From Crocinitomicaceae bacterium (lineage in GTDB: Bacteria > Bacteroidota > Bacteroidia > Flavobacteriales_D > Crocinitomicaceae): a DNA stretch of 64,000 bases. The translations under genes were made by a program, and so were the position numbers. Below the pieces are notes generated by a model. It was given only the letters and a program-made list of their open reading frames with translations. It made no database searches and was not told where the DNA came from. Positions 42,502 through 51,255 of the stretch are shown here, piece after piece (within the stretch, counting starts at the first letter, position 1; every line of letters starts with the position of its first letter). The stretch covers positions 1 to 64,000 of the forward strand of contig PAQM01000006.1 of the NCBI GenBank assembly GCA_002709305.1, written 5' to 3'.

Positions 42502-43623
42502 TTAATTTTTAATATAAATATTGCAGTCTATTGCATAATGATCGCTTAATTTATTTTTTTGAACATTAAACTTTTGTGATCCAAGATTTTCAGAATGAAA
42601 AATATAATCAATTCTCATTGGTAAGAATATATCTGCATATGTCGAGCCTATTCCAAATGAAGTATTTCGATAAGCATCGGTTAAAATAGAGTTGAATTGA
42701 TTATAACAATATGAAGTTGGTGTATCATTAAAATCTCCACAAATTATAATATTTTTTTTATGAGAGTTGGTTATATGATTTTTTATCATGTCTACTTGTT
42801 TAGCGCGAACACTATATGCTTTTTGCATTTTTTGCATCATATTGATAATATTATATGATGAATTAGAGTTTTTATTTCTAGAATTAAAAATTTCATAATC
42901 TTCTTTTTCAAGTCTTATAGATTGTAAATGAACATTATATACTCGAAAAGTATCAGTTTTCTTTATTATATCAGCATAAATACAATAATTATAATTCCAC
43001 TTGTGTGTTTTAAAATTAATTTTCCCTTTTTTTATAATAGGGTATTTAGAAAATATAGTTACACCAAATTTTTGTCTTTGTTTATTTTTCTTAGCAAATT
43101 GTTCGTGTATATATTTTATATCCATTATTTCAATTATTGTATCTTTTGTTCTAAATGAAGATGGTGGATCTTGATCATAAAATTCTTGAAAACAGATAAT
43201 ATCAGGATTTTGTTTTTTTACATACTCAATAATTTTATTTTTATTCTTATATGATTGATTTATATTATCATTATATAAATCAAATAGATGAACATTGTAA
43301 CTCATGATTTTAATTAAATTACTGTTTTTGGTAATTTGATTAAATCCAAAACAAAATGTTCGAAAATGAAATTTCCCACCTAATAATATAGTTATTAGTA
43401 TAATAATAGACCACCTAGATCTTTTTATGATCCAAATAATTAGAAGAAATAGATTAATAAAGAAAATGGGTAAATATGCTAATCCAAAAAAAGGTAATAT
43501 AGATATTGAATTGGGTTTTATATTTGGTGAAACGTATGATAAAATAAGAGATAATAAGGAAATGATAGTTATTAAAATGAATAAAGTATTAAAAGCAATT
43601 AGTTTTTTTAATAACTTCTTCAT
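42502..43623 (-). CDS. Membrane-anchored endonuclease/exonuclease/phosphatase-family protein
   Basis: 373 residues. Three hydrophobic segments occupy the first 100 residues (about 12-34, 44-66, 72-88), followed by an EEP domain facing the outside: SYNVHLFDLYN, IICFQEFYD, GDFNDTPTSY and the terminal SDHYAIDCNIYI, all metal or phosphate contacts of the DNase I-like fold. The substrate could be a nucleic acid or a phospholipid. It overlaps the rhomboid stop by 4 bases and precedes tsaC, so it belongs to the mutL operon. Confidence 0.82.
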   Translation of the reverse strand: MKKLLKKLIAFNTLFILITIISLLSLILSYVSPNIKPNSISILPFFGLAYLPIFFINLFLLIIWIIKRSRWSIIILITILLGGKFHFRTFCFGFNQITKNSNLIKIMSYNVHLFDLYNDNINQSYKNKNKIIEYVKKQNPDIICFQEFYDQDPPSSFRTKDTIIEIMDIKYIHEQFAKKNKQRQKFGVTIFSKYPIIKKGKINFKTHKWNYNYCIYADIIKKTDTFRVYNVHLQSIRLEKEDYEIFNSRNKNSNSSYNIINMMQKMQKAYSVRAKQVDMIKNHITNSHKKNIIICGDFNDTPTSYCYNQFNSILTDAYRNTSFGIGSTYADIFLPMRIDYIFHSENLGSQKFNVQKNKLSDHYAIDCNIYIKN

Positions 43624-44528
43624 TGTTCACTTTGTTTAAATAAATAATCTTTTTCTTTTTTTGATAAAGATTCATAACCAGATTTAGATATCTTATCTAA
43701 GATTTTGTCTATTTTATCTTGACGATTTTTATGATCTACATTGTATTCTTCGTCTGTCTTAAAGCGTTTGTTTTTTTGGTGTTTCTTATGGAACTTTAAC
43801 CCTGTATTTCTATTCTTTAATAGTTTAATAAATTTATTCCAAAAGTTATCTGAAAGGTTAATTATATTATTTGGTTTGTTTATATTTTTAATTGATAATA
43901 AACCTATAATTGCCCCACCTAAATGAGCAAAATGAGCGGTGCCATCTTCTTTACCAAGCGCTAATAAATCAAAAGTGATGAATATTCCTGCTAAGAGAAT
44001 AATCCTAACAGGTAAAACACCGAATAAATTAAGTTTCAAATTTGGTCTGTAAAATGCAGTTGCAATAAAAATAGCCATAATTGAACCTGAAGCCCCTACT
44101 ATGATATCATTAAAAATTTGAAGCTTTGGGAAAATGGTGTGCGCAATTATCTCAAATATACCACCAGTTAAGCCACCTATTATATAGATTAGAATCAATC
44201 TTCTACTATTAAATATTTGTTCAAATATTTTACCTGAAAAATATAAAAAAATCATATTAAATAATAAATGCATAAAGTCATAATGTGAGAATATACTTGT
44301 GAATAATCCCCAAGGATGTTTAATGAAGTCAATAAGGTTAGTATGTAAGCCAGATATGTGGTATGTAAAAAAATCAATAAAAACGGATTCATTATTCATT
44401 ACTAACGAAAAGAAAACATCTATAATATTGATTATTAGAAATATACTTACGTTAATAAAAATTATTTTAATGGTCGAGCCACCATTTTTATATTGATATT
44501 TTAATTCATTTAATAAATCCCTTTCCAT
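43620..44528 (-). CDS. Rhomboid intramembrane protease (second of a tandem pair)
   Basis: 302 residues from the ATG at 44528, which shares a base with the stop of the upstream rhomboid gene (TAATG); an upstream in-frame ATG at 44561 would add 11 residues but is less likely. Six spans, with the serine nucleophile in GASGS at Ser147 and the catalytic histidine in AHFAHLGG at His202, plus HYDFMHLLFNM with the L1/TM2 His-Asn residues. The C-terminal 80 residues are a charged cytoplasmic tail (KFHKKHQKNKRFK) absent from its neighbour. Substrates unknown. Confidence 0.87.
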   Translation of the reverse strand: MERDLLNELKYQYKNGGSTIKIIFINVSIFLIINIIDVFFSLVMNNESVFIDFFTYHISGLHTNLIDFIKHPWGLFTSIFSHYDFMHLLFNMIFLYFSGKIFEQIFNSRRLILIYIIGGLTGGIFEIIAHTIFPKLQIFNDIIVGASGSIMAIFIATAFYRPNLKLNLFGVLPVRIILLAGIFITFDLLALGKEDGTAHFAHLGGAIIGLLSIKNINKPNNIINLSDNFWNKFIKLLKNRNTGLKFHKKHQKNKRFKTDEEYNVDHKNRQDKIDKILDKISKSGYESLSKKEKDYLFKQSEQ

Positions 44529-45277
44529 TAATAAAAGTTTTGTCGATCTGTTTTTCGCCAAATTATCACCATTAATATTCCAACTATAGCACCTCCTACA
44601 TGAGCTAAATGAGCAATTTGGTCGTTAGTGTTGAAAAAACTATTATAGGTTTCTAAAATCAGGTATCCACCAATTAAATATTTTGCTTTTATAGGTATTG
44701 GAGGAAATAAAAGCATAAGTTTTGTATTTGGGAATAATAGTGCGAAACCTGAAAGGAGACCAAATATGGCTCCAGAAGCACCTACAATTGTACTTTTAGT
44801 CATTAGTATATAATCACTAAGTATTTGATTTGATTTATTTGAATTAATAGATATTAAATCATATTTTTCGTTAAATATTTTATTGTTAAGTGAAGATAAA
44901 TCATATCCATCCATAAGTAATTGCTCCTTCAATTCAAAAATCTGCCAAACACCAATTGTATTATACAATGCAATTGCTCCTAAACCACATGAAAAATAAA
45001 AAATAAAATATTTTTTGGGACCCCATATACGTTCTAGATGTGAGCCAAACATAACTAATAAAAGCATATTAAATATAATATGAAAATAATCAGTTAAGCT
45101 ATGCATAAACATATGCGTAATAATTTGAAAAGGTTTAAAAAAAAATGAATTAAAATAATGTGCTCCCAATAATTGTGATATATTAATACCTTTTGTTTCT
45201 AAAACATTTGCTGCAAAGAAAAATAATACATTTAGTATTAATAAATTTTTTGTTACAGGTGGTAAATTTTTTAGCAT
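44528..45277 (-). CDS. Rhomboid intramembrane protease (first of a tandem pair)
   Basis: 249 residues with Ser168 in GASGA and His226 in AHLAHVGG as the catalytic dyad, and HSLTDYFHIIFNMLLL carrying the conserved L1 His-Asn positions. A loop of about 50 residues (111-160) with few hydrophobic residues is inserted before the nucleophile span; the neighbouring copy lacks it, so the two probably have different substrates. The pair is inside the mutL operon, 2 bases after mutL, and the stop overlaps the start of the second copy. Confidence 0.88.
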   Translation of the reverse strand: MLKNLPPVTKNLLILNVLFFFAANVLETKGINISQLLGAHYFNSFFFKPFQIITHMFMHSLTDYFHIIFNMLLLVMFGSHLERIWGPKKYFIFYFSCGLGAIALYNTIGVWQIFELKEQLLMDGYDLSSLNNKIFNEKYDLISINSNKSNQILSDYILMTKSTIVGASGAIFGLLSGFALLFPNTKLMLLFPPIPIKAKYLIGGYLILETYNSFFNTNDQIAHLAHVGGAIVGILMVIIWRKTDRQNFY

Positions 45278-47533: not shown

Positions 47534-50137
47534 ATGAATGCAAGAAAAATATTTTTATCAATATTATTAACGTTATTTCTTTTAAATTTTTGTTGTTCTT
47601 TTAGTAAACAAACCACATATAATAATAAAAATCAATCCATTGAATATAATGAATCAAAAAAATGGGTAGATGAAAAAATAAAAAGTCTTTCATTAGAAGA
47701 AAAAATAGGTCAAATATTAATTGTTAATTATAATGTCAATGGAAATAAATTAACTCTAAAAAAAAATGATTCTATTATTAAAAAATATAATATAGGAGGT
47801 GTTTTATTACCCAAATTATCAAGAGATTCTATTTTTATTTATACTAAACGTATTAATAATATATCAAAACTCCCATTATTAATTGGTATAACTGGTTACC
47901 TAAATTTGTATCCTAGTAAAAATAAATCTAAAAAATTCCCTTATAGTTACACATTAGGCGCTGCAAATGATATCCAATTGACAGAGTTAATCGGCAAAAT
48001 GATAGGTCAAGAGTCTAGACGATTGGGTGTTCAAATTAATCTATCACCATCTTTAGATATAATTCAACACTGTGTTAAAACAGGCTATAACCCAAAAAAA
48101 ATCATGAATCATATTGATGTTATTGTCAAAGGACTTAAATCTCAGGGTATACTTACTGAAATTAATGATTTATTCGGGTTAAATAAAGATAATGAAGAAA
48201 GTGAATTTAAAATTGTTGTAGATTTAGAAATAGTAGAAAGTGAAATTAAAAAAATCATAAATAAGGTTAAATCTGGAGAAATAAATGAAGAAAGAATTAA
48301 TGAACGTTGTAGAAAAATTTTAGAACAAAAATTCTTAAACTTTATTAGAGAAACAAAAACGTTAAATAAGACATATTCAGAAGGAGAAATTAAACTTGCT
48401 AAAAGACTTATCTATGAAAAATCGATTACTGTAATAAAAAATGAAGAACAAGTTCTTCCAATTAATAGGTTTGATAAAAAAATCGTTCACATTTCAATAG
48501 GTATAGATTCTATTTCATTAAAAAGGTCAATAAATTTAATTAGTGAAATTGATCATTTTCAATTCAATTCTTTACAAGAAGCTAAAAAAGTTTTTTCATC
48601 AAAATTATCTAATTATGATTTAGTTATTACCACTTTACAATCTAAACAAAAAAATATTGAAAATGAAAAGGACTTAAATGATTGGATAGATATACAAGAC
48701 TCGTTAAATGATAAAATATTAGTCATTTTTGATCATCCATTATTACTTAAAAAAATTAATTTAAATAAAATTAATAGCATTGTAATTGCATATGAAGATA
48801 ATCCAATAGCACTTGATAGAGCTGGTCAATTTTTAATGGGTACTTTTTCTAGTTCAGGTAAACTTCCTGTGGATATTATTTCAAAATATAGAGCAGGAGA
48901 TGGTATTATTATTAATAGTACTGGAAGACTTAAGGATTCTCAACCTGAAGAATTAGGTATTAACCCTATTCAATTATCAGAAATTGATACTATTGTGAAA
49001 AATAGTATTAAATCTAAAGCTTTTCCTGGATGTCAGATTGTTGTTGCAATCAAGGGAAAAGTAATTTATAGAAAATCATTCGGTTATCACACATATGATA
49101 AAATTAGAGAAGTAACTAACACAGATATTTATGATATTGCTTCAATTACAAAAATAGCAGCTTCTACATTAGCTTTAATGCATATGGAGAGTAATAATAA
49201 ATTTAATCTTAATAATAAACTATCATATTATCTTCCAGAACTTAAGGATAAAGATCAATATGGAAATATTAATTTGAAATCAATGATGTCTCATCAATCA
49301 GGTTTGAAATCATGGATTCCTTTTTATATAAAAACATTAAATAATAACGAGCTTAGAAGTGATATATATCAAGACAAAAAAAGCGATTTATTTTCAACTC
49401 AAGTTTCATCAAACTTATGGATTGTGAATGGTTACACTAATAAAATTTATGAACAAATATTAGAAACACCATTAAAAGGTAATCGTTATAAATATTCAGA
49501 TGTTGGTTATTATTTCTTAAAAAAAATCATTGAAAATAAATCAGGTCTATCTCTCGATAAGTATATGAAGAAATATTTTTATAATCCAATAGGTTTGTCA
49601 AATATAACTTATAACCCAACTAAATATTTTCCTCTCAATCAGATTATCCCAACTGAGTATGACACAATATTTAGAAAAGAACAAATACATGGTTACGTTC
49701 ATGATCAGGGTGCGGCAATGATTGGAGGAATAGGCGGACATGCTGGTCTTTTCTCAAATGCTGGAGACTTAGCGAGTTTAATGCAATTACTTTTAAATAA
49801 TGGGGAATATGCTGATATTTCATATATAAATCCTAACGTTGTAAAAAGGTATACTGAATGCCAGTATTGTCCATTAAATAGGAGAGGAGCGGGATTTGAT
49901 AAACCAAAATTAGATTTAAATGGAGGTCCTACTTGTGAATTAGTAAGTTTGTCTAGTTTTGGGCATTCCGGATTTACTGGTACACTTGTCTGGTCTGACC
50001 CAGTAAATGAAATAAATTATGTTTTTTTATCAAATAGAGTTTATCCAAATGCAGATAATTGGAAAATTGTAAAAATGAATGTTCGTACTGATATTCAGAG
50101 GGTTATATATAAAGCACTTAAAGGATCTAAAATATGA
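47534..50137 (+). CDS. Exported GH3/serine-hydrolase fusion with a gutted GH3 domain
   Basis: 867 residues. An N-terminal signal sequence (LLNFCCSFSK, possibly a lipoprotein) precedes a GH3-like region (about 45-300: KIKSLSLEEKIGQILIVN, IGGVLLPKLSRDS, LGVQINLSPSLDI, ERINERCRKILEQK), then a C-terminal beta-lactamase-like hydrolase. In homologues I recall, KHFPGHG and the FTDAL-type catalytic Asp separate LSPSLDI from ERINERC by roughly 180 residues; here only about 80 remain and both motifs are gone. The hydrolase is intact, with Ser537 and Lys540 in SITK, YSD in place of YxN and HSGFTGT as the third motif. Its stop overlaps bshA by 4 bases. In Bacteroidota such fusions are thought to act on the cell wall. 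Confidence 0.85.
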   Translation: MNARKIFLSILLTLFLLNFCCSFSKQTTYNNKNQSIEYNESKKWVDEKIKSLSLEEKIGQILIVNYNVNGNKLTLKKNDSIIKKYNIGGVLLPKLSRDSIFIYTKRINNISKLPLLIGITGYLNLYPSKNKSKKFPYSYTLGAANDIQLTELIGKMIGQESRRLGVQINLSPSLDIIQHCVKTGYNPKKIMNHIDVIVKGLKSQGILTEINDLFGLNKDNEESEFKIVVDLEIVESEIKKIINKVKSGEINEERINERCRKILEQKFLNFIRETKTLNKTYSEGEIKLAKRLIYEKSITVIKNEEQVLPINRFDKKIVHISIGIDSISLKRSINLISEIDHFQFNSLQEAKKVFSSKLSNYDLVITTLQSKQKNIENEKDLNDWIDIQDSLNDKILVIFDHPLLLKKINLNKINSIVIAYEDNPIALDRAGQFLMGTFSSSGKLPVDIISKYRAGDGIIINSTGRLKDSQPEELGINPIQLSEIDTIVKNSIKSKAFPGCQIVVAIKGKVIYRKSFGYHTYDKIREVTNTDIYDIASITKIAASTLALMHMESNNKFNLNNKLSYYLPELKDKDQYGNINLKSMMSHQSGLKSWIPFYIKTLNNNELRSDIYQDKKSDLFSTQVSSNLWIVNGYTNKIYEQILETPLKGNRYKYSDVGYYFLKKIIENKSGLSLDKYMKKYFYNPIGLSNITYNPTKYFPLNQIIPTEYDTIFRKEQIHGYVHDQGAAMIGGIGGHAGLFSNAGDLASLMQLLLNNGEYADISYINPNVVKRYTECQYCPLNRRGAGFDKPKLDLNGGPTCELVSLSSFGHSGFTGTLVWSDPVNEINYVFLSNRVYPNADNWKIVKMNVRTDIQRVIYKALKGSKI

Positions 50138-51255
50138 AAATAGGTATAGTATTATATCCAACTTATGGTGGAAGTGGTGTTGTTGCTACAGAATTAGGTA
50201 AATTATTAGCAAAAAAAAATCATGAAATTCATTTTATAACTTACTCACAGCCAGTTAGGTTAGGTTCATTTAGTGAAAATTTATTTTATCACGAAGTAAG
50301 AGTTTCAGATTACCCTTTATTTGATTATGAGCCATATGAAACAGTATTAGCTAGTAAAATGGTTGATGTGGTTAAACATGAAAAATTAGATTTATTACAT
50401 GTCCATTATGCTATCCCACATGCCTCTGCTGCTTATATGGCAAAAAATATATTAAAATCACAAGGCATTAATATTCCGTTTATTACTTCTCTTCATGGAA
50501 CCGATATTACTTTAGTAGGTAAAGACCCATCGTTTGAGCCAGTTATTACATTTTGTTTAAATCAATCTGATGCTATAACAGCAGTATCAGAAAGTTTGAA
50601 AAATGACACTTATAAGCAATTTTCAACAAATTGTGATATTAAAGTAATTCCAAATTTTGTTAATCTAGAAAAGAATTCGTCTAGGAAAAAAAATAAACTA
50701 CGAAAAAAATATGCTTCTGATGAAGAATCAATACTTTGTCATATTTCAAATTTCAGAAAAGTAAAACGTGTAAAGGATGTTATTAAGGTATTTGATAAAG
50801 TTAATAAGGTTAAAAAGTCTGTAATGTTATTAGTTGGAGATGGACCTGAACGTAATTTAATAGAAGAATTTTGTAGGGAATTAAATTTGTCCAGTCGAGT
50901 TGTTTTTTTAGGTAAAATTCGTGATACATCTAAAGTGCTTGAATTAGCCGATCTATTTTTATTACCTTCAGAAACAGAAAGTTTTGGTTTGGCTGCACTT
51001 GAGGCTATGTCTAAAGGAGTACCTGTAATATCTTCAAATACAGGTGGTATACCAGAAGTGAATATTCATGGTGTTACTGGTTTTTTATCAAATGTTGGTG
51101 ATGTAATAGATATGTCAGAAAATGCTCTATATCTGTTAAAAGACAAAGAAAGATTAAACAATTTTAGTCAAAATGCTTTAAATCGTTCTAAAGAATTTAA
51201 CATTGAAACGATTGTTAAGGAATATGAGGATTTATATTATGATGTATTAAATTAA
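50134..51255 (+). CDS. bshA: N-acetyl-alpha-D-glucosaminyl-L-malate synthase
   Basis: First step of bacillithiol synthesis: joins GlcNAc from UDP-GlcNAc to L-malate. The 373-residue GT4 enzyme has the N-terminus KIGIVLYPTYGGSGVVATELGKLLA, LLHVHYAIPHASAAYMAK and TSLHGTDITLVGKDPSF, the specific BshA signatures, then LPSETESFGLAALEAMSKGVPVISSN with the two catalytic-domain glutamates. bshB and bshC are not in the window. ATG overlaps the stop of the GH3-fusion gene by 4 bases (ATGA), so they are coupled. Confidence 0.93.
   Translation: MKIGIVLYPTYGGSGVVATELGKLLAKKNHEIHFITYSQPVRLGSFSENLFYHEVRVSDYPLFDYEPYETVLASKMVDVVKHEKLDLLHVHYAIPHASAAYMAKNILKSQGINIPFITSLHGTDITLVGKDPSFEPVITFCLNQSDAITAVSESLKNDTYKQFSTNCDIKVIPNFVNLEKNSSRKKNKLRKKYASDEESILCHISNFRKVKRVKDVIKVFDKVNKVKKSVMLLVGDGPERNLIEEFCRELNLSSRVVFLGKIRDTSKVLELADLFLLPSETESFGLAALEAMSKGVPVISSNTGGIPEVNIHGVTGFLSNVGDVIDMSENALYLLKDKERLNNFSQNALNRSKEFNIETIVKEYEDLYYDVLN

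Follow-up and report, generated by a model that had tools for sequence, protein, structure and literature searches.

The window, as the whole stretch of DNA analysed here is called, comprises 64,000 nucleotides from a Crocinitomicaceae bacterium. At positions 47534–50137 of its forward strand lies an open reading frame with an ATG start, which runs for 867 aa without an internal stop; the initial annotation had rightly called the gene long and unbroken. It encodes a GH3/GH3_C/serine hydrolase fusion with a degenerate barrel. Export is predicted, since residues 1–26 (47534–47611) form a hydrophobic, signal-peptide-like stretch as judged by eye. The barrel remnant spans residues 45–255 (47666–48298; delimited by Pfam and orthologue alignment), the Pfam GH3_N profile matching residues 54–208 with 48.3 bits through its positions 2–164 of 316. 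The GH3_C domain is retained at residues 283–462 (48380–48919; Pfam and alignment), the Pfam match (residues 298–449) scoring 13.5 bits, below the cut-off of 31. The serine hydrolase occupies residues 463–867 (48920–50134; Pfam, NCBIfam and orthologue alignment), and its Pfam Beta-lactamase match (PF00144; residues 485–841) reached 133.3 bits against a cut-off of 27. In the PDB, the N-terminal part matched NagZ-type GH3 chains, and the hydrolase matched chains of the carboxylesterase/PBP type. Outside the fusion protein, a bshA-like glycosyltransferase gene (50134–51255, forward strand; ORF and Pfam) starts at 50134, overlapping the stop codon of the fusion gene. The coupling to bshA that had been remarked upon is real in that this overlap measures 4 bases, but it is not peculiar to this gene, as bshA flanks the fusion gene at 25 of the 30 loci examined in the genus. 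Elsewhere in the window (43620–45277, reverse strand), two adjacent rhomboid-like membrane proteins were seen by eye in the translations, beside mutL.

The order GH3 barrel, GH3_C, PF00144 serine hydrolase is the architecture of RmNag3 from Rhodothermus marinus, which its 2020 report presents as the sole enzyme of the GH3 + domain 2 + beta-lactamase type characterised at that time (PMC6987092). RmNag3 is described there as a beta-N-acetylglucosaminidase that hydrolyses pNP-beta-GlcNAc and chitooligosaccharides, and whose active site is formed by domain 1 only (PMC6987092). In the same account the nucleophile lies on strand g, the Asp-His dyad on loop e, an Arg and a Phe on loop d, a Lys-His pair on strand e and an Asp on strand c; the strand c Asp, the strand e Lys-His and the loop d Arg contact the GlcNAc in subsite −1 (PMC6987092). 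The window protein shares with RmNag3 the three-domain order and, by prediction, an N-terminal signal. It belongs to the architecture by descent, having the same domain order and full-length orthologues whose alignment with it covers the remnant, GH3_C and the hydrolase. Unlike RmNag3, it keeps 0 of the 7 residues compared and lacks ~104 barrel positions.

Orthologues were sought in the 34 genomes of the genus, 33 of which gave a match at E ≤ 1e-20; among the matches listed, those that no contig end truncates show open frames of 956–1029 aa. When aligned with them, the window protein was found to be without a loop of 7 residues and without a stretch of ~97 residues that begins at the KHFPGHG...DSH loop and reaches the last strand of the barrel, the nucleophile Asp included. 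The initial annotation had stated that the beginning and end of the GH3 domain are kept and that the section with KHFPGHG and the nucleophile is shortened in frame; the alignment with full-length homologues it had proposed bears this out, and also revealed substitutions well outside the gap. Thus PLLIGMDAEWG of the orthologues reads PLLIGITGYLN (47873–47905), DAEWG having become TGYLN with loss of the substrate Asp; after NLSPSLDI (48038–48061) the 7-residue NSNPxNP loop is missing and FRSYGE has become VKTGY; and a 14-residue segment of the orthologues corresponds in the alignment to INDLFGLNKDNEES. At 48146–48211, GILTEINDLFGLNKDNEESEFK replaces a 24-residue orthologue segment, with loss of the Lys-His pair and the Asp-His dyad. 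The approximate junction of the main deletion falls at residues 226/227 (48209–48214), a position that depends on the alignment. By sequence the (beta/alpha)8 barrel is incomplete: in addition to the partial profile match, 173 of 277 barrel positions are present, while 47 intact barrels have 277–279. Going by the motifs, and with strand numbering from NagZ structures, we take strands 6 and 7 to be gone together with their helices, and strand 8 to stand behind strand 5.

Seven positions, chosen from the active-site description of RmNag3, were scored: Asp, Arg, Lys, His, Asp, His and the nucleophile Asp. The window protein has T, V, N, D, E, E and a gap there (0/7; six replaced, one deleted). 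The substrate residues Asp (DAEW), Arg (FRS) and Lys-His (KH) are thus T, V, N and D, the dyad that follows KHFPGHG is E and E in an uncertain alignment with no DxH in the segment, and the strand g nucleophile of NagZ-type GH3 enzymes (SDA/TDA motif) is deleted. Of the six replaced residues, the Asp and the Arg are at a good distance from the KHFPGHG...DSH segment; the other four fall within it, and the alignment is less secure there. Among 48 full-length barrels, 46 scored 7/7, one (L002) scored 6/7 through an Asp to Asn change, and one (L022) scored 0/7. The GH3 barrel of the window protein therefore looks catalytically dead, and glycosidase activity would be absent. That the enzyme is an active GH3 with relocated catalytic residues is the least credible of the alternatives, since all seven positions are lost, the Lys-His and Arg included, and ~97 residues are gone; beyond an acidic NKDNEESE in the shortened loop, nothing was found in its favour. 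It is also highly improbable that an ordinary full-length gene was altered by an assembly or sequencing error: the comparison covered a single genome of the species, with an estimated contamination of 3.95%, but the substitutions lie far from the deletion, the frame is open, the evolutionary rate is raised over the whole remnant (see below), and other decayed cases exist (L022 and L100).

The serine hydrolase tells the opposite story. The PF00144 motif set SxxK, Y-x-(N/D), (K/H)-x-G is present as SITK (nucleophile motif, residues 537–540; 49142–49153), YSD (second motif, residues 654–656; 49493–49501) and HSG (third motif, residues 811–813; 49964–49972), and S537, K540, Y654, S655, D656, H811 and G813 are invariant across 13 aligned orthologues. 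All 38 conserved polar positions of the hydrolase are kept in the window protein, as they are in L022 (38/38). The claim of an intact hydrolase next to a GH3 domain that has lost its catalytic core thus stood on both counts. Among the NCBIfam models, PBP4B (NF002968) scores highest on the hydrolase (169.5 bits, below the cut-off of 385), the next model reaching 44.3. Escherichia coli PBP4B (YfeW), the protein of that model, differs in having no GH3 fusion, and the window hydrolase scores under its curated cut-off. The PBP4B gene lies within the murQ operon, and Bacillus subtilis NagZ and AmiE break down muropeptides one after the other in the extracellular space (PMC5061867), AmiE being a PF00144 protein inactive on intact peptidoglycan (PMC10653849); the RmNag3 authors also compared their enzyme with this NagZ/AmiE pair (PMC6987092). 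The window protein resembles B. subtilis NagZ (YbbD, PDB 3bmx), a two-domain GH3 to which its residues 25–178 match, and AmiE (YbbE), to which it is likened by membership of the PF00144 family; these are encoded by separate genes, whereas in the window protein the halves are fused and the NagZ half appears dead. By analogy, the most likely substrates of the hydrolase are MurNAc-peptides, on which it would act as a MurNAc-L-Ala amidase like AmiE or as a DD-peptidase like PBP4B. An AmiE-type amidase activity is suggested by the architecture and by the B. subtilis pair.

To compare rates, branch lengths were fitted on the hydrolase topology, with 28 congeners as the comparison set. The terminal branch of the window gene measured 2.45 for the retained part of the barrel (congener median 0.158, maximum 0.838), i.e. 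15 times the median, 0.720 for GH3_C (median 0.230, maximum 0.797) and 0.313 for the hydrolase (median 0.134, maximum 0.521), about twice the median. The L022 gene of a congener (G001), whose barrel is near full-length (266 positions) and carries no large deletion in spite of its 0/7 score, showed the same pattern (3.80, 1.13 and 0.58, respectively). The retained residues were then set against a codon-level simulation of neutral drift with AT-biased mutation, halted at the observed identity. Conserved polar positions were kept at neutral levels, both in the window remnant (4/17; neutral means 5.0–6.1) and in L022 (7/25; neutral 7.0–7.4). Hydrophobic positions were kept in 48 of 57 cases in the remnant (neutral means 42.0–46.0, the observed level being reached in 36–284 of 1000 runs) and in 67 of 85 in L022 (neutral 58.8–62.7). 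Retention of the hydrophobic core had been considered as proof of a fold, on the grounds of a permutation value of 22.6 against 48/57; it was dropped given the 42–46 of the neutral simulation. Gly/Pro positions behaved differently: 10 of 14 were kept in the remnant (neutral means 3.0–5.1), a level that was never attained in 300 runs from each of three starting relatives and was attained in 0, 0, 7 and 6 of 1000 runs in four settings, and 16 of 20 were kept in L022 (neutral 4.9–6.4; 0 of 1000 in four settings). Gly/Pro positions were also kept more than polar ones (Fisher P = 0.012 in the window protein and 0.0008 in L022).

By these data the active site evolves as though free of constraint, unlike the positions at backbone turns, which favours some remaining fold. 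The Gly/Pro retention counts against a barrel in pure decay and suggests that the relic could still be folded, although some of the window branch may be older than the loss of catalysis. A tentative alternative is accordingly that the dead, shortened barrel stays folded as a structural or allosteric element that keeps GH3_C and the hydrolase in position or stable. Both Gly/Pro excesses over neutrality, and those over the polar positions, speak for it; the hydrophobic retention in the remnant, which is not clearly over neutral, does not, the caveat on the age of the branch applies, and relatives devoid of the barrel keep the hydrolase, so that a scaffold would be dispensable at least there. A narrower version, in which the remnant is a stable (beta/alpha)6-like barrel with two beta-alpha units deleted, serving as a pseudoenzyme scaffold on a repeated path that leads from the two-activity fusion by way of a pseudoenzyme to a barrel-free protein, with living relatives at every stage, is rather doubtful. 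A single-sequence fold prediction of residues 38–462, made without an alignment, gave a pLDDT of 36.4 and a pTM of 0.21, values too low to bear on the new fold variant that the initial annotation had named as an alternative. The suggestion in the initial annotation that the remnant is a binding-only module, which would hold a peptidoglycan sugar and guide the hydrolase, finds no support at the old sugar site. The remnant is in frame, putatively expressed and upstream of an intact hydrolase, and the Gly/Pro retention fits such a role too, but an open frame is required anyway, as the predicted export signal and the hydrolase lie on opposite sides of the remnant. Moreover, the Asp, Lys, His and Arg of subsite −1 are all replaced, which makes GlcNAc binding at the old site unlikely, and sister lineages drop the barrel and keep the hydrolase. 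We regard this proposal as very unlikely.

The fate of the barrel in relatives was followed through a search for GH3_C plus hydrolase in 160 genomes of the order, which gave matches in 149; many of the matches listed have frames of only ~450–660 aa. When such short-frame genes were fetched and translated, the hydrophobic leader was seen to run directly into GH3_C, or into the hydrolase in G188, and tblastn with an intact barrel revealed no barrel-like sequence at the 30 short-frame loci tested. The window protein resembles these barrel-less orthologues (g15, G109, f3 g35/g56/g39; G188) in its orthologous GH3_C and hydrolase, or hydrolase alone in the case of G188, and differs in that its gene still has a remnant of about 180 aa. 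The G188 gene (L099; G188:C12:58304-59506) is a 458-aa frame from which both barrel and GH3_C are gone and which bshA adjoins; the search of that genome found a stand-alone GH3 and no other. In G029 the KHFPGHG loop and strand 6 are missing in frame and the nucleophile Asp is kept; this gene spans two contigs, and its genome has another GH3 with a full-profile match. G010 was considered as another decayed case and rejected, as a contig end accounts for its weak GH3 score and the fragment has DAEWG. A scan of contigs for relatives of the window protein outside the genome search returned one locus, with 20% identity; none was found in the viral contigs scanned.

A hydrolase tree was built with 83 genes, of which 78 were counted: 47 with intact barrels, 28 barrel-less and 3 with decayed barrels. 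These numbers are not frequencies because the relatives were picked, not random, the short-frame genes having been taken on purpose among the matches listed and the intact genes being a hand-picked sample. L097, L098, L102 and L031 (cut by contig ends) and L101 (split frame) stayed off the count; short-frame genes of G171, G159, G181, G034, G037 and G031 (contig ends or split frames) were left out, as were family f9 genes (~1000-aa frames, partial matches among those listed). From the 50 fetched stretches, L113, L114 (the L022 gene), L115, L121 and L122 lie outside the tree and L026 (the L100 gene) was omitted, while L087, truncated at its N-terminus where the contig stops, and L096, whose start codon is doubtful, were scored barrel-less from their clade. 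Parsimony required 8 changes on this tree, as opposed to an average of 24.5 and a minimum of 17 with shuffled labels. The eight non-functional groups are 14 g15 genes, 11 genes of one f3 clade, and the singles G145, G109, G188, G029, G001 and the window gene. Deep branches are poorly supported, and L076, which has the g15 label, stands apart from the other g15 genes (support 0.60), so the eight events may be seven. If G145 belongs with g15, the number is likewise seven. On the topology of these 78 genes, then, the barrel would have decayed or vanished about 7–8 times. Genomes of the eight loss lineages have a median size of 2.5 Mb versus 3.4 Mb for those of the 47 intact genes (Mann-Whitney P = 0.0014, or 0.0044 without the incomplete f3 genomes), a trend that is a hint only, since neither phylogeny nor completeness was corrected for (the G001 genome, for one, is 83% complete).

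Another GH3 ORF, 364 aa long, lies in the window genome (2.32 Mb, completeness 99.73%). Its N-terminus is hydrophobic, it carries KHFPGHG...GDTH as well as VTDAMNM, and its nearest PDB sequences are GH3 beta-N-acetylglucosaminidases. The AnmK and NamZ families are also present in this genome, which makes recycling of muropeptide sugars plausible. A newly gained NagZ as a simple replacement was rejected as an explanation: a complete stand-alone GH3 occurs in 28 of the 34 genomes of the genus, in almost all of which the fused barrel is intact, a further three have it in pieces (G005, G007 and G047), and none was seen in G002, G003 and G024. Being so widespread in the genus, the stand-alone gene is older than the barrel decay seen here. 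Among 29 barrel-less or decayed relatives searched, it was complete in 24 and in pieces in G180 and G088; no stand-alone NagZ-like frame was seen in G100, G156 and G029, where GH3 occurs only in longer frames. Since the stand-alone gene is common beside intact fused barrels, redundancy is permissive of barrel decay, not a sufficient cause.

The reading we consider probable, if well short of certain, is as follows: a former two-activity muropeptide enzyme is now a pseudo-glycosidase on a working serine hydrolase, GlcNAc being removed by another enzyme. The observations behind it are the domain anatomy, the loss of active-site residues, the asymmetry of rates, the recurrence in relatives and the presence of the stand-alone gene. 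Against it count the wide occurrence of the stand-alone gene beside intact fused barrels, the three searched relatives in which no stand-alone copy was seen, the PBP4B score under its cut-off and the retained Gly/Pro positions. The ancestor would have been an exported three-domain enzyme with a NagZ-type GH3 barrel, GH3_C and a serine hydrolase, the fusion joining GlcNAc removal with a second muropeptide-cleaving step. The active site would have been lost through substitutions and the in-frame deletion of about two beta-alpha units, leaving the barrel under strongly relaxed constraint and the serine hydrolase under full constraint. As the fusion fits NagZ and AmiE in one chain, the hydrolase would be the second step that was kept; the window protein would now perform that step only, with GlcNAc removal presumably taken over by the stand-alone NagZ-like protein.

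A pseudo-glycosidase on a conserved hydrolase is not a new biochemical system: its biochemistry is ordinary, and its interest lies in the evolutionary series. The orthologues range from intact barrels, through one with a changed substrate Asp (L002), a full-length dead one (L022) and the dead and shortened one of the window gene, to genes with no barrel (27) and one with neither barrel nor GH3_C (G188). Such a series makes it possible to test whether a NagZ-type plus amidase-type fusion brings any benefit when there is already a separate NagZ, and whether it is structural reasons that keep dead enzyme domains in place. A further implication is that naming such genes beta-N-acetylglucosaminidase from their GH3 label is wrong for part of the family. 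A limited literature search returned no title describing a fusion of this kind that has lost its GH3 barrel.

Some further variants were observed among the relatives. L002 (G014), a near relative of the window gene in which the Asp of DAEWG is Asn, keeps 23 of 25 conserved polar barrel positions and has a barrel/hydrolase branch ratio of 3.0; it is possibly an early stage of decay. In L101 (G061:C3) the fused gene is broken within the barrel into frames of 270 and 763 aa. At G037:C3:1267430-1270299 and G034:C6:4487-7313 it is split into side-by-side GH3 (639 and 633 aa) and hydrolase (351 and 380 aa) frames, which are either true splits or sequencing frameshifts.
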